A stretch of DNA of 64,000 nt. Source: an uncultured Lachnospiraceae bacterium (GTDB taxonomy: Bacteria > Bacillota > Clostridia > Lachnospirales > Lachnospiraceae). The notes under the pieces are model-generated. The model made no database searches, had not been told where the DNA came from, and was given only the letters and a program-made list of their open reading frames with translations. Of the stretch, positions 9,269-34,611 are shown one piece after another. Made by a program: the position numbers and the translations under genes. Position 1 is the stretch's first letter, and every line of letters starts with the position of its first letter. The stretch spans positions 1-64,000 of the forward strand of contig CANQHZ010000001.1 of NCBI GenBank assembly GCA_947623805.1. The letters are read 5' to 3'.

Positions 9269-10762
9269 CTAAAACTGAAAGTAAATAAACGTAGACGCAT
9301 CATACTCCGGCCCATAAACGCCGAAAATCACAATGGCAAAAATCAGCCCATAGTACACCAGCCATCGAAACCAGACATTCTGCCTCTCCAGTATGCCCCT
9401 TATATCCGCCTTTTGCTTTTTCCAATAATCTACAAGCATAAGCACAATCAGGCTCACCAGCAAGACGAGGAAGTCTTTTTGCGGCAGAGCCATAGTATTT
9501 ATGCCAAATATGTTGTTCGGGTCAAAAAACGTGAGCAGCCCTATATTTGTCACGCTCTGGCGAAGCATCCTGCACGCCGCCGTCATATTATCCGCGCGGA
9601 AAAACAGCCACGCGATATCCACAAACGCAAACGTAATCACTCTCTGCAACAGGCGATAGCTGCCACAGTCTGTACGGATATTCAGCGTTTCCTTAAGCTT
9701 GCCGCGAAACGCCTTTGTCATATCACCCACAACCTGATAAAGCCCGTTCAACAGCCCCCAAATCACGTAATTCCAGCCTGCGCCATGCCAAAGACCACTC
9801 AGTGAAAAGGTAATCAAAATATTGCGATACTTTTTCCATCTGCCACAGCGGTTGCCGCCCAGCGGAATATAAATATAATCGCGAAACCACGTAGTCAGCG
9901 AAATATGCCAGCTGCGCCAAAACTCACTGACTGACGTGGCATAATAAGGACTTTTGAAATTTTTTGTCAGGTTAAAACCCAAAACTCTTGCCGCGCCCAC
10001 GGCAATATCGGAATACCCGCCAAAATCGCAATAAATCTGAAACGCGAAAAGCACAGTCGCAAGGCAAATCTGCAGACCCGAATAGCTTGGATAGTTGTCA
10101 TAAACCTCCGTAACCAAAATGGCAATCCTGTCCGCAATCACCAGCTTTTGGAAAAACCCCCACCCCATCAGAAGCAGACCACTTTTTATCCGCTCCAAAT
10201 CAAAGCAATGCTCCTCCTTTAGCTGATGCATAAGGTTTTTGCTGCGCTCAATCGGCCCTGCCACAAGCTGCGGAAAAAAAGAAATAAACAGCGCATATCG
10301 CAAAAAATTCTTTTCCGCCGGGATATCCTTGCGGTAGACATCAAATACATAGCCAAGCGCCTGAAAAGTATAAAACGAAATGCCCACAGGCAACACCACA
10401 TCATACACAGGCATACTCACAGAAACGCCAAACAGCGCCATGCCGTCTGTAAAAGCATTAATTATAAAGGCAATATATTTAAAGAAAAACAAAACGCCTA
10501 AATTCCAAATCACGCATAAAGCCAAATACCATTTCCTGCTATGTACTTTGCCGCGCCTATTGTCCCTGTCTATCAAAAGACCTCCCGCCCACGACACGGC
10601 AGTAGTGGCAAAAATCAGCAGAAGATAGGCGGGATTCCAACTTGCGTAAAAGTAATAACTCGCCGCCAGAAGCCACAGATACCTATATTTGCGCGGTATC
10701 AGAAAATAACACAATACCACTATCGGGAAAAAAATCAAAAAGCCTGTCGAATTAAAAAGCAC
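9269..10762 (-). CDS. MBOAT-family membrane O-acyltransferase (AlgI/PatA-like)
   Basis: The 497-residue polytopic protein belongs to the AlgI branch of the MBOAT family. It has VLPVGISFYTFQALGYVFD, FFPQLVAGPIERS, FWRSWHISLTTWFRDYIYIPLGG with His286, and GLWHGAGWNYVIWG with His326, the two conserved MBOAT histidines. Such proteins carry acyl groups, usually acetyl, across the membrane to an extracellular polysaccharide. The start is a GTG with GAGGGGG seven bases upstream. Its partner, an SGNH-type protein, lies 86 bases upstream in the same operon, the usual AlgI-AlgJ/DltB-DltD pairing. Confidence 0.92.
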   Translation of the reverse strand: MLFNSTGFLIFFPIVVLCYFLIPRKYRYLWLLAASYYFYASWNPAYLLLIFATTAVSWAGGLLIDRDNRRGKVHSRKWYLALCVIWNLGVLFFFKYIAFIINAFTDGMALFGVSVSMPVYDVVLPVGISFYTFQALGYVFDVYRKDIPAEKNFLRYALFISFFPQLVAGPIERSKNLMHQLKEEHCFDLERIKSGLLLMGWGFFQKLVIADRIAILVTEVYDNYPSYSGLQICLATVLFAFQIYCDFGGYSDIAVGAARVLGFNLTKNFKSPYYATSVSEFWRSWHISLTTWFRDYIYIPLGGNRCGRWKKYRNILITFSLSGLWHGAGWNYVIWGLLNGLYQVVGDMTKAFRGKLKETLNIRTDCGSYRLLQRVITFAFVDIAWLFFRADNMTAACRMLRQSVTNIGLLTFFDPNNIFGINTMALPQKDFLVLLVSLIVLMLVDYWKKQKADIRGILERQNVWFRWLVYYGLIFAIVIFGVYGPEYDASTFIYFQF

Positions 10763-10847
10763 AGGTATACCCCCTCACAGCCTAATTATTATGTAATCAC
10801 AAAACACACTCCAAACGTACCAGATTTGCGCGAATGAATTTTTGCAA

Positions 10848-11840
10848 TTATCTGTCATTATCGTAGAGCGCCGCAAATACAAATCGCGTCACTTTGTCCG
10901 CCCCGTCCTTATTTAAGTGATGATAACTTGTATACAGGTCCTCAAAATCCTGCGCGGTCAGACCGATTTCATCATAATATTTGTTGCAGTCCAAATAACG
11001 CAGACCTTCGCTTTGTGCCAATTCCGCTATCTTGTCCGTATACCCGTCATAATTGATAGACCGTATATACCCGTCATACATCGGTGCCATCACCAGATAC
11101 AGCGTGATGTTTTCTTCTCGGCAGAGCTGAGCGAGCTTATGAAAATGATTGATATTCGTCTCCGAGATTGTCTTCGCGACAGGATTGTACTCCGCTCCAT
11201 CGTACTGCGCTTTTATTTCGTCCGACATCTTTGTCTCGCTCGGGTGAAAAGGCGTATACTGCTTATTGCCTTCCAGCATAAAAAACATATTGGCAAGGAT
11301 TGTCTCAACGCTTGCCCAATTGCCGTGGCAGCGCGCAATCGGCAGGAGCGCATATGCCCAATTCTGCGGAAGGTACTGCTCCTTTACCGCCTCAAGCTTG
11401 CATATGCCAAAGCGCATACCGTCAATGTTCGATTCCTTTTTCCAGTCCTTGTCAAAAGTTTCGCCATAACGCCAGTTATTGTTTTCGTCCAGTGCGAATG
11501 CTTCCAGAATGATTGTGTCGGGGTGCTGATAATGCAATGCCTCTTTTACATTGAAGTAAGTCTGAACTGTATTTTGGGTATTGCTGGCTAATATATAGCT
11601 GCTTTTACCCGTCATTTCCGAGATGATATCAGGATTGAAAGACGCATAAGCGTGGCTGTTACCTACTATCAAAATCTCAGTTTCACCACGCTCCAGCGTA
11701 TAAAAATGCTTCCATGTATATGTAATATCATTGGACGGATAGAGTAACCAAACCGCCCTTTGCAGCAGAACAATGAGAATCAACAAAAAAAGAAATATTC
11801 CCAGCCAGCTTTTTTTGTGCTGTGTCCATAATTTTTTCAT
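10848..11840 (-). CDS. Membrane-anchored SGNH-like partner of the MBOAT protein
   Basis: The 330-residue protein has one N-terminal transmembrane helix (about 12-34) and an extracellular SGNH-hydrolase-like domain: ILIVGNSHAYASFNP with Ser62 in the block I position, and HHLNKDGADK near the C-terminus supplying His308. In the usual DxxH block V the acidic residue lies three before the His; here that position is Ser305, with Asp301 further away. Together with the AlgI-type protein it probably acylates a surface glycan, like DltD or AlgJ. AGGGAG precedes the start. Confidence 0.75.
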   Translation of the reverse strand: MKKLWTQHKKSWLGIFLFLLILIVLLQRAVWLLYPSNDITYTWKHFYTLERGETEILIVGNSHAYASFNPDIISEMTGKSSYILASNTQNTVQTYFNVKEALHYQHPDTIILEAFALDENNNWRYGETFDKDWKKESNIDGMRFGICKLEAVKEQYLPQNWAYALLPIARCHGNWASVETILANMFFMLEGNKQYTPFHPSETKMSDEIKAQYDGAEYNPVAKTISETNINHFHKLAQLCREENITLYLVMAPMYDGYIRSINYDGYTDKIAELAQSEGLRYLDCNKYYDEIGLTAQDFEDLYTSYHHLNKDGADKVTRFVFAALYDNDR

Positions 11841-25833: not shown

Positions 25834-25836
25834 AAT

Positions 25837-25949
25837 CAATCTCCATTCTGTTAGTTCTGTATGTATATATTTCCAGACAGCACTGTAAAGCGCCGCCATT
25901 ATAATTTCCTGATGCCATTATTATACAGAAAAGCGATTATATTTACAAT
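25837..25949. repeat. Direct repeat A (left boundary of the acylation module, trmL leader)
   Basis: This 113-base segment aligns without gaps to 32799-32911 with roughly 15 differences. It covers the trmL ribosome binding site, leader and promoter, ending two bases before the trmL start region. Both copies are in the same orientation and enclose the XRE gene and the five-gene acylation operon. Confidence 0.9.
25920..25948 (-). promoter_or_regulatory. trmL promoter within repeat A
   Basis: Minus strand TTGTAA, 17 bases, TATAAT, a near-consensus housekeeping promoter about 87 bases before the trmL start. The same boxes and spacing are kept in repeat B. Confidence 0.75.
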
Positions 25950-25995
25950 TCCGATGCCGCGCTTTTATAAACGATTATAAAGTCTGCGATAAAGC

Positions 25996-26220
25996 TTATT
26001 TTTTAGGATATTCATTGATGATATTGCTCGCGCCTGTGATATAGTCCATCGACACATTATAGAATTGTGCCAAGATTAAAAGGCTGTCCACTGGAATCCT
26101 AGTCTTGCCACTTTCATAATCGGCATATGTCCGCTGACCGACGTGCAGCAAATCGGCTACTTTCTGCTGTGTCAAAAAGCGATTTTCGCGAATTTCCCTT
26201 ATACGTTCATTATATCTCAT
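25996..26220 (-). CDS. Small XRE-family repressor-like regulator
   Basis: The 74-residue protein is almost entirely a Cro/CI helix-turn-helix: IREIRENRFLTQQKVADLLH then VGQRTYADYESGKTRIPVDS and LAQFYNVSMDYITG. The ATG at 26220 with an AGGTG site gives the usual compact start; the longer frame to 26271 runs into the promoter. It is divergent from the acylation operon, and a perfect inverted repeat lies in that operon's promoter, so it likely represses the operon. It lies inside the direct-repeat-bounded segment. Confidence 0.88.
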   Translation of the reverse strand: MRYNERIREIRENRFLTQQKVADLLHVGQRTYADYESGKTRIPVDSLLILAQFYNVSMDYITGASNIINEYPKK

Positions 26221-26264
26221 GCGATAACACCTCGCAAATAGTATAAAGAAAAACAAATATTCTA

Positions 26265-26293
26265 TTGACAAATAGAGTTATAAACTCTAAAAT
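26265..26293 (+). promoter_or_regulatory. Promoter of the acylation operon with overlapping operator
   Basis: TTGACA (26265-26270), 17 bases, TAAAAT (26288-26293). The spacer and start of the -10 box contain the perfect inverted repeat TAGAGTT-ATA-AACTCTA (26273-26289). A protein bound there would block polymerase; the neighbouring XRE protein is the obvious candidate. Confidence 0.8.
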
Positions 26294-26319
26294 AGGTTTT
26301 GACTAAAAAAGGGAGGGTT

Positions 26320-28455
26320 ATGTCATTGAAAATAAACTTAGTTAAAAACCTCTTAAATAAAATAAAAATGAAAATAAAAACTGCTCCTGTTAAAAAAGCC
26401 TGTTTCTTTGTCGGCATCCTGCTCTTTCTTTTAATAAAAATTAACTCTCTGCTGCAGCCTGTTTGGCTGGGATGGAATAATTACAGCACCATTCAGGGCT
26501 TTTATGATGAGCCGAAAAATACAATAGAAACAATTTTTCTTGGTTCAAGCAGGACAATCACAGCGTTTAATCCAATGGAGCTGTACGATAAGTACGGGAT
26601 TTGCGCCTATAATATGGGGACAGAATCACAGCCAATTATGGCATCATATTATCAAATGTTAGAAGCATACAGGCTTCACCCCCAAACCTTAAAAACCGTT
26701 GTCCTGGAATGCACGCACCTGATATCTGGAAACGAATCGCTTGCCATGTACCAAAAGGCAATCGATGCAATGCATTTTCCAACAAAGTATAGGGCGGTCA
26801 ATGATTATCCAATTGACAATATTCAAAAAAAATATTATTATATCCCGTTTTTTGAATACCACAGCAGATGGTCATCCATGACACGAGCAGATTTTGAAAA
26901 AGATAATTACAATGCAAATGACTGGAGCAGGGGCTATCTATTTGTATACAAAAGTTTTTTAGATTCAAAGGGCTACAAGGATATTGCTGTCCCATCTTTT
27001 GATTTGGATGAAACCGCAGCGCCATCCAAATATAACTCAGACGCTTTAAATTATTTTGAGCAAATGACCAGCTTTTGCAGTGAAAAAGGGCTAAAGCTTA
27101 TATTAGTGTCAACGACAAATAACTGGACATCCGCAAAGCATAATGCTATTGCCGCATTAGCAGCACAAAATAATCTTGATTATATCGACTTTAATTTTGG
27201 TACGATACCAGAAGAAATAAACTATAATCTCGCCACGGATATGTACGAAGATAATCACTCGGGTTACTACGGCGCATACAAGATGACTGATTGGATTGGA
27301 AATTATCTTGTTCAGAAATGTGATGCAACAGATATCAGAGGCAGCAGCCGTTTTTCGCATATGGAAAAACAGCTCGAAGCTTACGAAAATAATATCACAG
27401 ATATCGTGAAACTAAAGGAAGCGGAAAATATCTGCTATTATCTGGAATTGGCAACGAAAAAGAGTGACTGCACTATTATGATAACGGTAAAAGACAGCGC
27501 AGTATCCGGATTGTATGATTATTATAAAATGCGCCTTTTCGCAATAGGTCTTACAGGATTTATAGATTTAGAATATCGTGAACCTTATATTGCTGTAATT
27601 GAAAATGGACGCGTAATCTATGAACAGCCAGAATGCGGGAGTGAAAAAGCGACCAAAAAATTAACATACAGCGGCATACTTGCAAATGGTACTAAATATG
27701 TTTTGGAAAGCGGCGGGGCAGATTCTGGAAATATTGCTTCCTGCAAAATAGCCGGCACTGAATTTTCGCCAAATACACGCGGAATAAACATTGTCGTATA
27801 TGACAATAATGCAGGTGAAAACCATTCTGGCAATGTAATAGACACAGCAGCATTTGATACGCATTTGTCACCCTTCAGAGAAGCTGGATATAAAAATGAC
27901 CAGCTCGCTCTCGCTGAGGCAGAAGGAATTGACTATGCGGATTTATCCTCAGGACTAAAAAAACTCTACCTGTATAATTATCGCCGTGAAAGGATTCTTA
28001 AATCTCAGCAGACCGCAAATTTAAAATCCGAAGGCAGACTTTTAGATTTTCTTAAAACATATTGGAATGATGACAACAGCCTGATTTTTCTCTCCGTTAA
28101 AGGGGCGGCGTCTGGCGCTCTTGATGACGCGGCGAGAAAATCATTTGCTGATATTAAGCTTGATAAACTCTCAAAAATAGGGGCTGGCGATTCATATGCC
28201 GCAGTCATCAGTGAGGGAAATGTAGTATGCGAGCAAAAAACTTCAGGACAAAATCCCGCCGCCATAAATTTTTATGGCTCTTTGCTTATAAGCAAGGGAG
28301 CTGAAGCGGGTAATACATCATCAATTTTAATCAGTAATGCAGAACAGTCCCCAAATAAGGACGGCATTAATGTGGTTGTTTATGATACAAGATTAAATAT
28401 TGTAATAGATAAAGGCAGTTTTAATACGGAAATAAATCCTGTACAAATGCCATAA
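26320..28455 (+). CDS. Membrane SGNH (DltD-like) protein with two FAM3/ILEI-like domains
   Basis: The protein of 711 residues has an N-terminal transmembrane helix (about 27-43), then an extracellular SGNH-like domain: IFLGSSRTITAFNP near 73-86 and EDNHSGYYGAYKM near 310-322, the Ser and His blocks seen in DltD-type partners of MBOAT proteins. The C-terminal half (about 370-705) contains two units each with a KDSAVSGL- or KGAASGALDDAAR-type segment, a YIAVIENG or YAAVISEG strand, then GNxxSxxI and RGINIVVYD or DGINVVVYD, ending VID...FDT or FNT, the pattern of the ILEI/FAM3 domain. The ATG at 26320 has GGGAGGG upstream; a TTG six bases on is possible. First gene of the operon. Confidence 0.75.
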   Translation: MSLKINLVKNLLNKIKMKIKTAPVKKACFFVGILLFLLIKINSLLQPVWLGWNNYSTIQGFYDEPKNTIETIFLGSSRTITAFNPMELYDKYGICAYNMGTESQPIMASYYQMLEAYRLHPQTLKTVVLECTHLISGNESLAMYQKAIDAMHFPTKYRAVNDYPIDNIQKKYYYIPFFEYHSRWSSMTRADFEKDNYNANDWSRGYLFVYKSFLDSKGYKDIAVPSFDLDETAAPSKYNSDALNYFEQMTSFCSEKGLKLILVSTTNNWTSAKHNAIAALAAQNNLDYIDFNFGTIPEEINYNLATDMYEDNHSGYYGAYKMTDWIGNYLVQKCDATDIRGSSRFSHMEKQLEAYENNITDIVKLKEAENICYYLELATKKSDCTIMITVKDSAVSGLYDYYKMRLFAIGLTGFIDLEYREPYIAVIENGRVIYEQPECGSEKATKKLTYSGILANGTKYVLESGGADSGNIASCKIAGTEFSPNTRGINIVVYDNNAGENHSGNVIDTAAFDTHLSPFREAGYKNDQLALAEAEGIDYADLSSGLKKLYLYNYRRERILKSQQTANLKSEGRLLDFLKTYWNDDNSLIFLSVKGAASGALDDAARKSFADIKLDKLSKIGAGDSYAAVISEGNVVCEQKTSGQNPAAINFYGSLLISKGAEAGNTSSILISNAEQSPNKDGINVVVYDTRLNIVIDKGSFNTEINPVQMP

Positions 28456-28476
28456 AAAATCGAAGGGAGAAAACAT

Positions 28477-30009
28477 ATGAACCATAGCGTAATCAACTGG
28501 CTGGAAATAACTGCAAACCGCTTTCCTGATAAGTTAGCGTTTTCGGACGCAAGCAAGTGCTATACATGGCATGAGATAAGGAAATCTGCCTTGTTTATAG
28601 CATACCATATCCAATCAGCCATTTCTGACAGTAAGCAGGCAGTTGCCGTATATATGGAAAAGTCTTCGGATATGCTGGCGGTTTATCTTGGCATTGCATA
28701 CAGCGGTAATTTTTACAGCCCAATAGCAGTCGATATGCCGTCTGCCCGTGTCGATAAAATACTGCAGACTTTACAGCCTGCCCTTTTTATTACGGCTAAA
28801 CGGCTTCAAGCCGATATTGGCTGCGGAAAAAAGGTTGAATATACTGGAAAGCTGCTGCGCTTTGAAGAAATTGCTGAAGGCTTAGAAGACGAAGGTGAAA
28901 AATGTGTGCTTCGCAGAGCAGAAAGCATAATAGATTCTGACTTACTTTATGTCCTTTTTACATCAGGCTCTACAGGCGTGCCTAAAGGCGTAGCAATTAG
29001 CCACAGAAGCGTTGTTGACTATATTGACTGGGTCACGGAGGAATTTGGCATTACGGCAAATGATTCATTTGGAAACCAAGCGCCATTTTATTTTGATAAC
29101 TCAATTTTGGATATATATTCGTCTGTCAAAACAGGGGCATCATTATACATAATACCATCCGATTTGTTCGCGCAGCCAGTAAAGCTATTAGAATATTTAA
29201 AGGAAAATGCCATCAGTACGATATTTTGGGTTCCATCGGCACTCCTTATGGTGTCCAGCCTAAAAGCCTTCAGAAATGTAGATGTATCTGAAACGCTAAA
29301 ACGCGTACTGTTCTGTGGTGAGGTTATGCCAAATAAGCAGCTGAACATATGGCGCAAATATCTCCCCGATGCGCTTTACGCAAACCTATACGGTCCTACA
29401 GAGATAACAGACGCATGTACTTTTTATATCGTTGACCGACCCTTTAATGATAACGAACCGCTTCCGATTGGGCATCCAATGCGAAATACAGATATTATAG
29501 TGCTGGACGAGAATAACAGACAGGTGCTTGAACCCGATGTGCCTGGAGAGCTATGCGTACGCGGCACGTCACTATCAGCAGGATATTATAATAATCCCGA
29601 AAAGACCTCTGCCGCTTTCGTACAAAATCCGCTGCAGACGGCATATGAGGAAAAAATATACCGCACTGGCGACATTGTAAAATACAATGATCGGCACGAG
29701 CTTATTTATCTTTCCAGAAAAGATTTTCAGATAAAGCACTTAGGGCATCGGATTGAACTTGGTGAGATTGAGACAGCCGCTTCTTCCCTTGAGGGCATAT
29801 CTCTTTGCTGCTGCCTGTATGATGAAAAGCACAGCCAAATAGTATTGTTTATTGACAGCAACTTCACCAAAGACAAAGTCATCACTAAACTAAAACAAAT
29901 GCTGCCCGGCTATATGCTTCCTGGAAAAGTAATATTCGAAGCCTCAATGCCGCTCAACGCAAACGGAAAAATAGACCGCGTAAAATTGCGTGAAAAGTAC
30001 CTGAACTAA
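28477..30009 (+). CDS. DltA-like amino-acid adenylation enzyme
   Basis: The 510-residue protein is a stand-alone adenylation domain with core motifs FTSGSTGVPKG (161-171), FYFDNSILDIY with Asp207 at the amino-group-binding position, LFCGEVMPNK, NLYGPTE (303-309), YRTGD (395-399), GHRIELGEIE (423-432) and NANGKID near the end. Asp207 points to an alpha-amino acid; the Cys of FCGE is shared with D-alanine-activating DltA as I recall that family. It should load the carrier protein encoded two genes downstream. The exact amino acid is not proven. GGGAG site; 21 bases after the previous stop. Confidence 0.88.
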   Translation: MNHSVINWLEITANRFPDKLAFSDASKCYTWHEIRKSALFIAYHIQSAISDSKQAVAVYMEKSSDMLAVYLGIAYSGNFYSPIAVDMPSARVDKILQTLQPALFITAKRLQADIGCGKKVEYTGKLLRFEEIAEGLEDEGEKCVLRRAESIIDSDLLYVLFTSGSTGVPKGVAISHRSVVDYIDWVTEEFGITANDSFGNQAPFYFDNSILDIYSSVKTGASLYIIPSDLFAQPVKLLEYLKENAISTIFWVPSALLMVSSLKAFRNVDVSETLKRVLFCGEVMPNKQLNIWRKYLPDALYANLYGPTEITDACTFYIVDRPFNDNEPLPIGHPMRNTDIIVLDENNRQVLEPDVPGELCVRGTSLSAGYYNNPEKTSAAFVQNPLQTAYEEKIYRTGDIVKYNDRHELIYLSRKDFQIKHLGHRIELGEIETAASSLEGISLCCCLYDEKHSQIVLFIDSNFTKDKVITKLKQMLPGYMLPGKVIFEASMPLNANGKIDRVKLREKYLN

Positions 30010-30031
30010 ACATAGGAAAGGAGGACATTAA

Positions 30032-30925
30032 TTGAATACACGGTTTAATCAAATTGTAGTTATAGGATGCGGAAAGGCTGCCAAGGAAATTTTAAACATT
30101 GCCAATGATTTTAAAGGAAAATATAATTATGAACTTATTTTCATTGAACATGAAATAGCGGCTCTGTCAAATATGCAAAATATCTGCAGGACAAAAGAAA
30201 TTCAATATGAACAGCTTACAGACAGAAGCATTTTAAGCCAACGCCTTCTGGCAATGCATACTCCAACCCTTATTATCAGCGCAGGAAATTATTATATATT
30301 TCCAAAATCAGTTATAGAGCAGCAAAATATAGAAATAATTAATTTCCATAATGCCCTGCTTCCAAAAATACCCGGCAGGAACGCAACTACTTGGGCGTTG
30401 TATCTAAATGAAAAGGTTAGCGGAGCCACATGGCACTATGTCGTGCCAAACATAGATGCCGGCGCTATTATCGCTCAAAAGGAAGTAGCCATCACTGAGG
30501 ATATGAGAGCGTGGGAGCTTTCTAAAAAAATCACTGATGCCGCTATTGAGTTATTTTCCAGTTTTTTCATGCAATTATTGCAAAAACATATTACTGGAAC
30601 TGTACAGCATGCCGACAAAACCAGAAAAATATATTACTCTCACGAAATTCCAGAAAACGGAATATGCTCAATTAATATGCCGCCTGAAAATATATACCGT
30701 CTGCTGCGCTCTATGGATTATGGAAAAAATAATGTCTTTCCGCCAGCAAGAATTATATTATCAGACGGTTCTGCCGCCACAATAAAAAATTATTTTAAAG
30801 CGCCAAAAGAACACTGTTTAGATACCCGCTGCATAATGGATGACAATAATCAGTTTCTTTATATCGCTTTGTCTGACAAATATGAATTAAGGATTACATT
30901 AAAAAACGACAAGGTTCACAATTAA
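30032..30925 (+). CDS. Formyltransferase-fold protein within the acylation operon
   Basis: The 297-residue protein has a formyltransferase domain: IVVIGCGKAAKEI (Rossmann start), NFHNALLPKIPGRN with Asn104 and His106, and VPNIDAGAIIAQ with Asp142, matching the Asn-His-Asp triad of Fmt, ArnA and sugar N-formyltransferases. A C-terminal region of about 100 residues resembles the Fmt_C barrel. It begins with TTG, supported by AAAGGAGG seven bases upstream. D-alanylation operons normally lack such a gene. Likely donor is N10-formyl-tetrahydrofolate; the acceptor could be the carrier-bound aminoacyl group or a sugar. Function inferred. Confidence 0.82.
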   Translation: MNTRFNQIVVIGCGKAAKEILNIANDFKGKYNYELIFIEHEIAALSNMQNICRTKEIQYEQLTDRSILSQRLLAMHTPTLIISAGNYYIFPKSVIEQQNIEIINFHNALLPKIPGRNATTWALYLNEKVSGATWHYVVPNIDAGAIIAQKEVAITEDMRAWELSKKITDAAIELFSSFFMQLLQKHITGTVQHADKTRKIYYSHEIPENGICSINMPPENIYRLLRSMDYGKNNVFPPARIILSDGSAATIKNYFKAPKEHCLDTRCIMDDNNQFLYIALSDKYELRITLKNDKVHN

Positions 30926-30955
30926 TCAAATAATAATCAAAGGAGAACTAAAATT

Positions 30956-31186
30956 ATGGAAGAAAAAATTATCAAAATGCTTCAGGAAATAAACGAAGAT
31001 ATCATTGATTACCAAGGCGAAAATATGCTGGCTGATGACTTGATTGATTCATTTGGCATCATTCAGATCATCGCTAATCTTGAAGATGCGTTTGACATTG
31101 AGATTGATGCTGCGGATGTGACCACAGAGAATTTCGGCAACAAAAATAAAATTTTCGGCTTTATAAAATCTTTAATCACCGAATAA
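30956..31186 (+). CDS. Carrier protein (DltC-like)
   Basis: The 76-residue acidic, helical protein has LIDSFGIIQIIANLEDAF, in which Ser32 of DSFG is the phosphopantetheine attachment site, followed by FDIEIDAADVTTENF, the usual helix III region. Size and motif match DltC and other small carrier proteins. It should accept the amino acid activated by the adenylation enzyme and pass it to the membrane step. AAAGGAGAAC precedes the ATG, and the MBOAT gene follows by 18 bases. Confidence 0.92.
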   Translation: MEEKIIKMLQEINEDIIDYQGENMLADDLIDSFGIIQIIANLEDAFDIEIDAADVTTENFGNKNKIFGFIKSLITE

Positions 31187-31204
31187 CCGCGGGAGAACAT
31201 ACAA

Positions 31205-32776
31205 ATGAATTATATTTCCTTGTCATTTGCAATTTTTTTAATATCCTTGCTGACTGTCTATGCCCTAACGCCAAACCAGCATAAATGGAAAGTCCTTCTG
31301 CTTTTCAGCATCATATTTTATGCTATGAGCGGATTAGATAAGCTTTTATTTATTTTAGGTACTTCATTGATCGTAGATGCGGCTGCACTGCGCATGGACA
31401 AAATATGGACTGAATTTGACAACGCCTGCGGCGAGGAACAGCTTCAGGCATCCACAAAGCGTGAACTAAAAAAGAAGTACGCCAAAAGAAGCCGCCAAAT
31501 ACTTTCTATAGCATTATTTTTATGTATTGGCATTCTTTTTTGGTGCAAATACGGCGTTAAAACAGTATCATTCATCAATCGCACAGCGGGTACGTCTTTA
31601 ACCGCTAAGATTATTGTCCCTTTAGGAATTTCATACTACACATTTTCGTCCATTGGCTATTTATTAGATGTATATTGGCGCAAAGTATGTCCCAGCAGCA
31701 GTTACCCGCGTCTGCTGTTGTGCATGATTTATTTTCCACACATTGCAGAAGGACCTATATCACGATATAATCGGCTGCTTCCTCAGCTTGACACTCTTAC
31801 ATTTCCAAGCTACACACGATTTACATACGGCTTACAGCTTATGCTATGGGGCTGCTTTAAAAAAATGGTAATTGCAGACCGTCTCGCTATTTTTGTAAAT
31901 AATGTCTTTAATGATATTGAAGCCAATGAAGGACTTATTTTTCCGATTGCGCTTATATTTGGGGCATTTCAAATGTACACAGACTTTTCCGGCTGCATGG
32001 ACATAGTAACTGGAATATCCGATATTTTAGGAATACAGCTTGACAAAAATTTCCAGCATCCGTTTTTTTCCCAATCAGCAGCAGAATTTTGGCGCCGCTG
32101 GCATATTACGCTCGGTACATGGTTTAAGGATTATGTTTATATTCCGATAACCACTAGCTCTTTTATGCGCAGGCTCAGAAAACTATCCTCTAAAAAATTT
32201 GGAGATAAAGGAAGTAAATATATGCTGACGACTGTTCCAACAATGACAGTCTGGCTGCTAACAGGCATTTGGCACGGGACAGGAAAAAATTATATAGTAT
32301 GGGGATTATACTGGGGCATTTTGATTGTTAGCGGCGAATTGCTAAGCGATAAGCTTAATATTCTTTCAGAACGTCTGCACATAAATACAAACCGCATGGA
32401 ATGGCGCGTGTTTCGTACACTTCGCACATTTACACTATATGCAATAGGCGGACTAGCGCTTTTCCCAAAAAATCTTGAAGCATCACTGCTGGTTGCTAAG
32501 CGGATTTTCTCTACATTTAATATATGGATATTCTGGGATCAGTCTCTTTACAGCCACGGACTGGATCGCCGTAATTTTATCCTTGCTGTTTTGTCCATCC
32601 TGTTCTTACTGCTTGCGGACGCGGCTGCTGAAAGAGTAAACGTGCGGGAAAAAATTGCAAAAAGAAATATTGTCATCCGATGGTGCATTTATTATATTGG
32701 AATTTTAGCTGTGCTTATTTTTGGGATTTACGGACCAGGATATGACCCGCAGGCATTTGTATACCAACAGTTTTGA
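31205..32776 (+). CDS. MBOAT membrane acyltransferase (DltB-like)
   Basis: The 523-residue polytopic protein has the DltB/AlgI pattern: VPLGISYYTFSSIGYLLDVY, FPHIAEGPISRYNRL, FWRRWHITLGTWFKDYVYIP with His300, and LTGIWHGTGKNYIVWGL with His357. It presumably moves the group from the carrier protein across the membrane. Compared with the AlgI-type protein at 9269-10762 it has an extra charged loop near 66-96 and another near 320-338. Last gene of the operon; the stop is 22 bases before repeat B. CGGGAG precedes the ATG. Confidence 0.92.
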   Translation: MNYISLSFAIFLISLLTVYALTPNQHKWKVLLLFSIIFYAMSGLDKLLFILGTSLIVDAAALRMDKIWTEFDNACGEEQLQASTKRELKKKYAKRSRQILSIALFLCIGILFWCKYGVKTVSFINRTAGTSLTAKIIVPLGISYYTFSSIGYLLDVYWRKVCPSSSYPRLLLCMIYFPHIAEGPISRYNRLLPQLDTLTFPSYTRFTYGLQLMLWGCFKKMVIADRLAIFVNNVFNDIEANEGLIFPIALIFGAFQMYTDFSGCMDIVTGISDILGIQLDKNFQHPFFSQSAAEFWRRWHITLGTWFKDYVYIPITTSSFMRRLRKLSSKKFGDKGSKYMLTTVPTMTVWLLTGIWHGTGKNYIVWGLYWGILIVSGELLSDKLNILSERLHINTNRMEWRVFRTLRTFTLYAIGGLALFPKNLEASLLVAKRIFSTFNIWIFWDQSLYSHGLDRRNFILAVLSILFLLLADAAAERVNVREKIAKRNIVIRWCIYYIGILAVLIFGIYGPGYDPQAFVYQQF

Positions 32777-32798
32777 TAATGCGCATGTCCTGCCAATT

Positions 32799-32911
32799 CA
32801 ATCTCCATTCTGCTGGCTCTGTACATCTATATTCCCAGACAGCACTGTAAAGCGCCGTCATTATAATTTACCGATGCCATTATTATACAGAAAAACACTC
32901 ATATTTACAAT
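32799..32911. repeat. Direct repeat B (right boundary of the acylation module)
   Basis: Gap-free 113-base counterpart of repeat A, same orientation, 6.85 kb away. It contains a copy of the trmL promoter and leader but no trmL start codon follows; instead the left side runs into the 3' end of the MBOAT gene. Confidence 0.9.
32882..32910 (-). promoter_or_regulatory. Conserved promoter in repeat B, antisense to the MBOAT gene
   Basis: Minus strand TTGTAA, 17 bases, TATAAT, unchanged from repeat A despite differences around it. Transcription would run into the 3' end of the MBOAT gene as antisense RNA. Confidence 0.6.
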
Positions 32912-32930
32912 AACATCAGCATTAAAGCCC

Positions 32931-32959
32931 TTGTTAAATCAATTTTGTTTTTATATAAT
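32931..32959 (+). promoter_or_regulatory. Promoter of the AAA/PD-(D/E)XK gene
   Basis: TTGTTA, 17 bases, TATAAT, about 72 bases before the gene start. A GC-rich hairpin (CCGCT/AGCGG, about 32974-33006) lies in the leader. Confidence 0.65.
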
Positions 32960-33030
32960 ATAGAAAAACACCTAAACCGCTGCTGGCTAAAATACTGCTG
33001 AGCGGCTTTGGAGCATGGAGGTATCTTCCT

Positions 33031-34611
33031 ATGGGAATTTATTTAAATCCTAAAAACAGAGGTTTTCAGGAAGCGCTCAATTCTCAAATTTACGTAGATA
33101 AAACAGGACTGATTGAATATACAAACTCTTGCCTGAATACAAAGCAAAAATACATCTGCGTCAGCAGACCGAGACGTTTCGGCAAATCTATGGCACTTGA
33201 AATGCTTGCCGCCTACTATAGCTGCGGCTGCGACTCCAAGGATTTATTTAACGGACTTAAAATCGCCGGCCAAAAAACTTTTCCAAAATATCTGAATAAA
33301 TATGACGTGATTTATTTAAATATGCAGCATTTTCTTCTCAGAACAGATGCCTTTAATATGACGAAATATTTAGAGCAGGCTGTCCTTGAGGAGCTGCATG
33401 AAACCTATGGAAGCCTGTTTTCTGAGCAGACTGTTATTTTAGCTGAGGCGCTCGAAAAAATCTATGCAAAAGCTGATAAACAGTTTATCTTTCTGATTGA
33501 CGAATGGGACTGCGTAATGCGTGAGCGCCAGGAATCCGAGGCTCTGCAAAAGCAATACCTTGATTTCCTGCGCAGCCTTTTAAAGGATCAGCCATACGTG
33601 GCGCTTGCCTATATGACAGGTATTTTGCCTATAAAAAAATATGGACAGCATTCCGCATTGAATATGTTCGGCGAACATTCAATGACTGGACAGTATGATT
33701 TAGAGGAATACACGGGGTTTACTCAAGATGAAGTAAAGGCATTATGCCGGAGATTTGACATGGACTATGTCGAGACAAGCAGCTGGTATGACGGCTATAT
33801 GTTCAAAAATTTCCAACACATTTACAATCCGCGCTCTGTAGTGTCCGCTATGAGCTTTAAGAATTTTTCAAGCTATTGGGCTTCCACTGAAACGTATGAT
33901 GCGCTAAAAATATATATTGACATGGATTTTGACGGTCTAAGAGGCGCTATAATACAGATGCTAAGCGGCGAGCGCGTTAAAGTCAACACATTGAGTTTTC
34001 AAAATGATATGCATAGCTTTAATGTGAAAGACGATGTTTTGACTTTGCTTATTCATCTGGGCTACCTTGGATATGACGCACAGACAGAGGAGACCTTTAT
34101 TCCCAACAAAGAAATAATCAGAGAATTTGAAAACGCCATGAGCGTCGGGGGCTGGTCTGATGTTATGCAAATTCTTAAAGCCTCTGAAAAGCTGCTGTCA
34201 GATACATTAAGCGGCAATGAAAATGAAGTCGCCGAAGCGCTTGATAAGGCACATACGGAGGCAGCGTCAATTTTGACATACAATGATGAAAATTCTTTGA
34301 GCTGTGCCATAGGGCTTGCATATTACAGCGCGCGGAAGGATTACAGGCTTATACGGGAATTTCCCGCAGGCAAAGGCTTTGCGGATATCATATTCCTGCC
34401 CCTTCCGCACTCGTCAAAACCGGCGTTAATTGTGGAATTAAAATATGACGAATCCGCTGACACAGCCATACAGCAGATAAAAGGCAGACAGTATACGCAG
34501 GCGCTCGAAAACTATAGTGGCGAAATTCTTCTCGTCGCAATCAGCTATAGCAAGGCTGATAAAAATAAGCGCCATAGCTGTATTATTGAAAAAATTAAGT
34601 TAGATAGATAA
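33031..34611 (+). CDS. AAA-ATPase-like protein with PD-(D/E)XK-like C-terminus (DUF1703 type)
   Basis: The 526-residue protein matches the AAA-ATPase_like plus PDDEXK_9 architecture common in gut anaerobes. The N-terminus has YVDKTGLIEY and SRPRRFGKSMALEML (a modified Walker A), then FLIDEWDCVMRE (Walker B). The C-terminus has GFADIIFLPLPHSSKPALIV with ELKYDES, the D...E-x-K of a nuclease-like fold. The role is unproven; members often occur in many copies. It is monocistronic, right after repeat B, with GGAGG nine bases before the ATG. Confidence 0.88.
   Translation: MGIYLNPKNRGFQEALNSQIYVDKTGLIEYTNSCLNTKQKYICVSRPRRFGKSMALEMLAAYYSCGCDSKDLFNGLKIAGQKTFPKYLNKYDVIYLNMQHFLLRTDAFNMTKYLEQAVLEELHETYGSLFSEQTVILAEALEKIYAKADKQFIFLIDEWDCVMRERQESEALQKQYLDFLRSLLKDQPYVALAYMTGILPIKKYGQHSALNMFGEHSMTGQYDLEEYTGFTQDEVKALCRRFDMDYVETSSWYDGYMFKNFQHIYNPRSVVSAMSFKNFSSYWASTETYDALKIYIDMDFDGLRGAIIQMLSGERVKVNTLSFQNDMHSFNVKDDVLTLLIHLGYLGYDAQTEETFIPNKEIIREFENAMSVGGWSDVMQILKASEKLLSDTLSGNENEVAEALDKAHTEAASILTYNDENSLSCAIGLAYYSARKDYRLIREFPAGKGFADIIFLPLPHSSKPALIVELKYDESADTAIQQIKGRQYTQALENYSGEILLVAISYSKADKNKRHSCIIEKIKLDR

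Follow-up and report, generated by a model that had tools for sequence, protein, structure and literature searches.

A Dlt-like operon that includes a formyltransferase

The stretch analysed here, referred to as the window, comprises 64,000 nucleotides of contig CANQHZ010000001.1 from an uncultured Lachnospiraceae bacterium, and the unit under study occupies positions ~25836..32911 within it. The unit holds five genes on the same strand, separated by short gaps and each preceded by a purine-rich stretch resembling a ribosome site, in the order SGNH-like acyltransferase, adenylation enzyme (A), formyltransferase (FT), carrier protein (CP) and MBOAT acyltransferase. A divergent XRE-family regulator (25996-26220, minus strand; HTH_3, E 1.7e-14) lies in the same segment. 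We found that the gene order, families and frames agree with an earlier reading of this DNA (the original prediction), which had proposed a five-gene operon with a divergent XRE gene, and that its claim of a Dlt-like logic is supported by the combination of A, CP, MBOAT and SGNH-like proteins.

FT (30032-30925, plus strand, with a TTG start) has both the Formyl_trans_N fold (E 4.7e-20) and the Asn-His-Asp triad, which we take to be catalytic in folate-dependent N-formyltransferases. The three residues (N104, H106 and D142) are kept in 30 of 31 rows of a first alignment, the exception being L048, a nonribosomal peptide synthetase (NRPS) domain in which D is replaced by N. A second set, in which three rows are Met-tRNA formyltransferases, keeps them in all 40 of its rows, four NRPS rows (L048 included) having been dropped from it beforehand. 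PF00551 occurs at six places in the own genome, the window FT among them. We rejected the possibility that FT is an ordinary Met-tRNA formyltransferase, PurN or a sugar formyltransferase of the genome, as eight other formyltransferases (three from the own genome and five from relatives) lie beyond a 94/70 branch; L012, the ninth, is placed with the NRPS rows, and the own-genome places L121 and L125 stand outside that tree.

The A gene (28477-30009, plus strand) occupies the DltA position and encodes a stand-alone amino-acid adenylation enzyme (AMP-binding, E 4.9e-65). It scores above the cut-off of TIGR01733 and below those of the DltA models, reaching 315 bits vs a cut-off of 559.85 for the curated TIGR01734. 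The pocket code reads DNLFLCLDAK, with columns set on GrsA motifs; an alignment to DltA (3fcc) keeps the same Asp and Cys. Among the residues that form the D-alanine pocket (Asp, Leu, Met and Cys), Asp207 (codon 29095-29097, plus strand; position 235 of the code) and Cys280 (codon 29314-29316, plus strand; aligned with the D-alanine-selecting cysteine) are kept, while Leu is replaced by Asn208 and Met by Leu211. According to PMC8972799, the Asp of DltA binds the amino group and the Cys selects the enantiomer. Since both are kept, a D-amino acid is a possible substrate of A. The same code is found in L019, L021, L232 and L091, while L020 has DNPSLCFYAK. We know of no adenylation code that matches DNLFLCLDAK. 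L091, on contig C24 of the own genome, is a stand-alone A that is 63% identical to the window A and adjoins a carrier-like open reading frame (ORF), and a 2436-amino-acid NRPS-like frame lies on the same contig; the amino acid of the window A may also feed a peptide by this route.

CP (30956-31186, plus strand) occupies the DltC position. It has no Pfam match, and the nearest entries in the PDB are D-alanyl carrier proteins (E 6e-6). The DltC model is matched at E 1e-7, below its cut-off (32 of 68 bits for the curated NF003464 and 21 of 52 bits for TIGR01688). Ser32, within a DSF motif, is presumably the phosphopantetheine serine.

The MBOAT (31205-32776, plus strand; 523 amino acids) occupies the DltB position and matches PF03062 (E 1.1e-12) as well as the DltB model (E 3.6e-43), the latter below cut-off (148 of 375 bits for the curated TIGR04091). 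It has the two marks of the MBOAT member of an MBOAT-SGNH pair, a catalytic histidine and a C-terminal tyrosine motif; His357 and Tyr520 are invariant in 9 of 9 aligned proteins. The protein ends in FVYQQF (32756-32773, plus strand), an FxYxxF acyl-shuttle motif as described in PMC12148441, with Tyr520 as its tyrosine; the original prediction had passed over this motif. This tyrosine is present at the MBOAT tail in all 11 operons in which FT accompanies an MBOAT, with F as the last residue in nine and Y in two. No separate DltX-type ORF (20-90 amino acids, with an FxYxxF ending) was found in 25900-33100 except in-frame MBOAT tails. We also surveyed 75 MBOAT frames of more than 330 amino acids, a set separate from the window and from L232 onward: 57 end in Y..F, 7 in near variants ending in Y or H, 8 (380-399 amino acids) are without the motif, and 3 are cut or partial. 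Elsewhere in the window, a second MBOAT (tail FIYFQF) lies beside an SGNH-like gene (9269-11840, minus strand); it has no neighbouring A among ORFs of at least 200 amino acids and looks like a pair of the acyl-CoA type. The own genome contains 10 MBOAT matches above cut-off, two of them pieces on one contig.

The SGNH-like gene (26320-28455, plus strand) occupies the DltD position, and its assignment draws on conserved residues and weak profile matches. The protein itself has no SGNH family match in family scans. A profile of 13 relatives reaches GDSL/SGNH hydrolases weakly, with seven matches, two of which, including the top one (E 3.3e-5), are named as designed proteins; the best match to a natural protein is at E 3.3e-4. 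Among the 13 relatives, one matches Pfam DltD (E 0.0054), two match Lipase_GDSL_2 (best 0.0028) and three match DUF1574. G75 and H313 are invariant in all 13; at the position of S77, the candidate nucleophile, 11 have Ser and two (L143 and L169) have Cys. The C-terminus carries two ILEI-like repeats, which the original prediction did not remark upon; the copies resemble each other at E 5e-17 and match ILEI families.

The formyltransferase recurs with A, CP and MBOAT

We asked how often FT occurs together with A, CP and MBOAT in other Clostridia, a co-occurrence check that the original prediction had proposed. The relatives are largely draft genomes or metagenome-assembled genomes (MAGs), the scans give lower bounds, and function names follow from families and position. 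A scan of named genomes with a four-row FT alignment returned at least 33 loci, a lower bound because short patterns were used. Nine of these (L019-L027) are from Clostridia MAGs, with L023 and L026 in one MAG, and have stand-alone A and CP genes in the locus. An adenylation stretch is present in 23 of the remaining 24 (L028-L051), as expected for NRPS initiation modules, the exception being L029, on a short contig. A profile of four MBOAT-type FTs then matched 11 of the 397 genomes sampled from the family and 2 of the 398 from the phylum, both counts including the own genome. It yielded ten new neighbourhoods (L232-L241), seven of which (L232-L236, L238 and L240) contain A, FT, CP and MBOAT. 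L239 has FT with CP and a weak A match (5.9e-7), and L241 has A, A, FT, CP and a ketosynthase III-like gene.

Altogether, FT is found with A, CP and MBOAT in 11 loci: the window, L019-L021, L232-L236, L238 and L240. The original prediction would have fallen had the formyltransferase gene always lain elsewhere in related genomes; these 11 loci carry it within the set. A, FT and CP follow one another directly in nine; L019 has one gene between FT and CP, and L240 has the order A-CP-FT, so that FT adjoins A, CP or both in every case. Across the 20 loci with a stand-alone Clostridia FT (the window, nine from the named-genome scan and the ten new neighbourhoods), A and CP are present in the examined stretch of 19, with A ~7 kb off in L025. 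FT is part of the gene set and not a stray neighbour. The export side is more varied. Eight of the 11 loci have a recognisable SGNH-type gene, among them L020, where it is AlgX-like; the genes of L021 (356 amino acids) and L232 (364 amino acids) are SGNH-like by place only, unmatched by the SGNH profile, and none is recognised in L236. Because the MBOAT of L020 is just 27% identical, these data suggest that A-FT-CP is a donor-making core and that the export pair is exchangeable. In L022-L027, A, CP and FT lie near genes read as ketosynthase III, SDR and GNAT, with a flagellin-like gene in L022 (the ketosynthase III, SDR and flagellin labels being a reading of the sequences apart from any family call); these loci perhaps transfer N-formyl-aminoacyl groups to sugars inside the cell.

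The unit was acquired as a segment between direct repeats

The XRE gene and the five-gene unit are flanked by direct repeats of 114 bp that are 88% alike, close to the 113-bp imperfect repeats originally described. Copy 1 (25836-25949) is in the stretch upstream of trmL, and copy 2 (32798-32911) is 91% identical to the single copy in congener G026; neither is assigned a strand. The repeat sequence has two matches in the own genome, both of them the window copies, which rules out a dispersed genome repeat. The segment is AT-richer than its surroundings, as predicted, with a GC content of 0.391 vs 0.437 for the whole window, and 1.4% of overlapping 6.85-kb stretches in the window are equally AT-rich.

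We compared the trmL flank with the three congeners closest by TrmL (G028, G026 and G019; 93-94%), aligned over ~20 kb. The region from ~25950 to ~32797-32858, XRE gene included, is missing in all three. The empty site of G026 has one full-length repeat copy bridging the trmL side and the AAA-ATPase side, and those of G028 and G019 have one diverged, interrupted copy. None of 35 congeners had an FT match at E 1e-10. Since the three closest congeners are without the insert, the five-gene unit and its XRE gene are an acquisition, as the original prediction had held for the module. Insertion by a known mobile element was set aside because none of the segment's genes was recognised as an integrase or transposase. 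An AAA-ATPase_like and PDDEXK_9 gene (33031-34611, plus strand) directly follows the insert; it is outside the unit, since each of the three congeners aligned also has it at the empty site.

In the FT tree, the window FT is nearer to two Oscillospiraceae MAG loci (100/97) than to L232, a locus from its own family. The same five loci group together in both trees, at 100/99 for FT and within a group of six for A (SH-aLRT, an approximate likelihood ratio test, 99); the sixth member of the A group is the own-genome paralogue L091. No close FT was found in plasmid and phage collections, where 281 plasmid and 28 phage records matched, at less than 60% identity among the matches listed.

A wider Clostridia family with different tailoring genes

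We found that operons of this frame extend well beyond those with FT. An A profile at E 1e-150 matched 77 of 391 class genomes, from which 74 stretches were fetched, and gene presence or absence was counted on unfiltered six-frame stretches. An MBOAT lies within 5.2 kb on the same strand in 64 of the 74. Of those 64, 24 have an Asp/Glu racemase nearby, 10 a pyridoxal phosphate (PLP) decarboxylase-like gene and 8 a long GNAT, which makes the racemase class the largest of the three counted. The usual place of a GNAT or PLP gene is between A and CP, and that of the racemase is ahead of A. Family names come from Pfam scans of representatives (three GNATs, two PLP enzymes and one racemase) and from our own profiles for the rest. 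No genome of 96 from the order has a canonical dlt operon above the TIGR01734 cut-off.

We next questioned whether the A pocket follows the tailoring gene, using 82 A genes with an MBOAT, counted apart from the window and L232 onward. The code DAKC/DARC is accompanied by a racemase in 25 cases and by no tailoring gene in 10, DVK..CNK by a PLP gene in 12 of 12, and D..K..DK by a GNAT in 9 of 10. The DN code is accompanied by FT in three cases, GNAT in one and none in 16, many of these in tandem A-A loci. SMLY has none in three cases, DIQY has FT in one, and one other code has none. The pocket code thus appears largely to track the tailoring gene present. The DVK code, typical of the PLP class, also occurs in six FT loci, so one code can accompany either gene. 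In a 59-row A tree, built from hand-picked rows and not a random sample, tailoring labels need 10 changes by a quick method; the association between code and tailoring gene is partly due to shared descent. The code DN.FLCLDVK occurs near small GNATs, which lie between A and CP in L138 and on the strand opposite to A in L137. In racemase loci (e.g., L143, L152, L156, L169 and L180), the racemase is followed by an A with the code DAKCAGLGMK and then mostly by CP, MBOAT and SGNH genes, and these operons are predicted to decorate with D-Asp or D-Glu.

Several loci depart from these classes. L179, L185-L189, L196 and L200 have two different A genes in a row (three in L189) together with an MBOAT, and the MBOATs of L179, L185-L189 and L200 are 382-399 amino acids long, without the FxYxxF tail. 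The A genes of L166, L192 and L203 have the code SMLY..LDIK (SMLYMALDIK in L203), without the amino-group-binding Asp of DltA, and perhaps load a hydroxy acid or other non-amino acid.

A proposed N-capping step in trans-envelope acylation

We hypothesize that the unit encodes a system for trans-envelope acylation that follows the Dlt scheme, adds an N-capping step and transfers an N-formyl-aminoacyl group to an outer-surface glycopolymer, and consider this account fairly probable. We infer each chemical step, the amino acid and the polymer from the genes and their motifs. A would adenylate an alpha-amino acid, possibly a D-amino acid, and load it as a thioester on CP. FT would use formyl-tetrahydrofolate to formylate the amine of the CP-bound aminoacyl group, resembling an NRPS formylation domain but acting in trans. 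The MBOAT would then take the N-formyl-aminoacyl group from CP across the membrane onto its own Tyr520 in the FxYxxF tail, and the SGNH-like protein would pass it to an extracellular glycopolymer, which the ILEI-like repeats may hold. The product would be an uncharged N-formyl-aminoacyl ester rather than cationic D-alanine. This scheme is supported by the recurrence of A, FT and CP, the adenylation stretches in 23 of the 24 more distant FT loci, the grouping of the same five loci in the FT and A trees, the kept FT residues, the tail tyrosine in 11 of 11 MBOATs and the kept Asp207, and by the near-identical A code beside another gene of N-acyl type, the GNAT of L137 and L138.

Several observations weigh against the N-capping scheme. 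The best solved-structure matches of FT are sugar formyltransferases (ArnA, 3e-13, and a GDP-amino-sugar formyltransferase, 6e-13), and the formylation domain of linear gramicidin synthetase LgrA ranks behind them (E 3e-8). In the FT tree, a 99/98 branch separates the 20 stand-alone Clostridia FTs from all other rows, so that they lie outside the clade of NRPS formylation domains. In L237, FT lies beside an MBOAT/SGNH pair on the opposite strand, with neither A nor CP in 16 kb. Among the genes of the inserted segment, none was recognised as serving polymer synthesis. Lastly, FT is present in 0 of the 74 class-sample stretches, and therefore most family members work without FT.

The structural matches and L237 would also fit a role in which FT, as a nucleotide-sugar formyltransferase, makes a formamido sugar for the decorated glycan while A, CP, MBOAT and SGNH-like proteins separately add a plain amino acid. 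Glycan-type genes near some FTs point the same way: L020 has a GHMP kinase and an ABC exporter pair, and L019 has a cytidylyltransferase. We nevertheless regard this as unlikely, given the close linkage of FT to A and CP (adjoining one or both in 11 of 11 MBOAT loci, with both at 19 of 20 FT loci), the lack of any recognised sugar-modifying gene in the inserted segment, and the use of the slot between A and CP for a GNAT or PLP gene in sister operons.

It is quite unlikely, in our judgement, that FT instead acts on the amino acid while it is still free, ahead of loading, or on a side-chain amine (of ornithine, diaminobutyrate or lysine type). The transferred group would then keep a free alpha-amine with its positive charge, as in D-alanylation. 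The polar residues at two positions of the pocket code (N208 and D312) are consistent with such a substrate, and free amino acids are formylated in siderophore pathways. However, formylation of a CP-bound alpha-amine is the role known from linear gramicidin, 23 of the 24 more distant FT matches are in loci with an adenylation stretch, and L138 places a GNAT in the same slot next to a near-identical A code. A target other than a polymer, namely a secreted small molecule, peptide or lipid, seems to us very unlikely: the own-genome contig with both the close A paralogue (63%, same code) and the 2436-amino-acid NRPS-like frame favours such a target, but the FxYxxF MBOAT/SGNH systems cited from PMC12148441 act on envelope polymers.

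With N-capping as the preferred account, the window operon appears to be one variant of a broader Clostridia family with interchangeable tailoring genes, a family that the original prediction did not remark upon. We propose, with evenly balanced confidence, that Clostridia possess a modular, CP-fed surface acylation family in which an exchangeable tailoring gene, paired with an A pocket that matches it, would provide a palette of aminoacyl groups on glycopolymers; the tailoring gene would be FT, GNAT or PLP in the slot between A and CP, or an Asp/Glu racemase ahead of A. The window unit would be its N-formyl-aminoacyl member, a horizontally spread cassette.

The aminoacyl group that textbooks give for the surface polymers of Gram-positive bacteria is D-alanine. 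If the N-capping account is true, an amine-capping system adds neutral groups to the surface. An N-formyl cap would remove the positive charge, and the benefit would therefore not be the charge reduction attributed to D-alanine; our guess is a more stable ester or a neutral, distinct surface. If the wider family is real, Clostridia would draw on a set of aminoacyl esters, readable from the genome, to vary their surface. As general background, apart from the window operon, innate immune formyl-peptide receptors sense N-formyl groups. A search of open-access full-text literature, with most subscription papers outside it, returned no title or abstract on an FT in a Dlt-like operon or on the wider family, and no paper in the collection searched names formyltransferase, MBOAT and DltB together.

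Comparison with known systems

The unit shares with the Dlt system (DltA, DltB, DltC, DltD and DltX) the logic of A, CP, MBOAT and SGNH proteins; in the alignment of A to DltA, the Asp and the Cys that selects the D form are conserved, and the nearest PDB entries to CP are D-alanyl carrier proteins. In contrast to Dlt, it adds a formyltransferase, its A, CP and MBOAT score below curated Dlt cut-offs, its shuttle motif is fused to the MBOAT rather than carried by a separate DltX microprotein, and its SGNH-like protein bears ILEI-like repeats. PMC12148441 describes FxYxxF as the acyl shuttle: Dlt has it on DltX, and in acyl-CoA systems, which lack such a carrier protein, it is part of the MBOAT. 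The unit therefore has both the fused motif and a carrier protein as donor. In the same paper, PatA/PatB and related MBOAT-SGNH O-acetyltransferases use acyl-CoA, whereas the unit has A and CP as its acyl supply.

The initiation module of linear gramicidin (LgrA) comprises the same three activities, formylation, adenylation and carrier. In the unit, these are on separate proteins beside an MBOAT and not a condensation domain, and its FT belongs to a separate clade. The Clostridia A-CP-MBOAT-SGNH operons with a GNAT, PLP enzyme or racemase have the same frame and related proteins, and differ in that a GNAT or PLP gene replaces FT, or a racemase precedes A, mostly with another A code.

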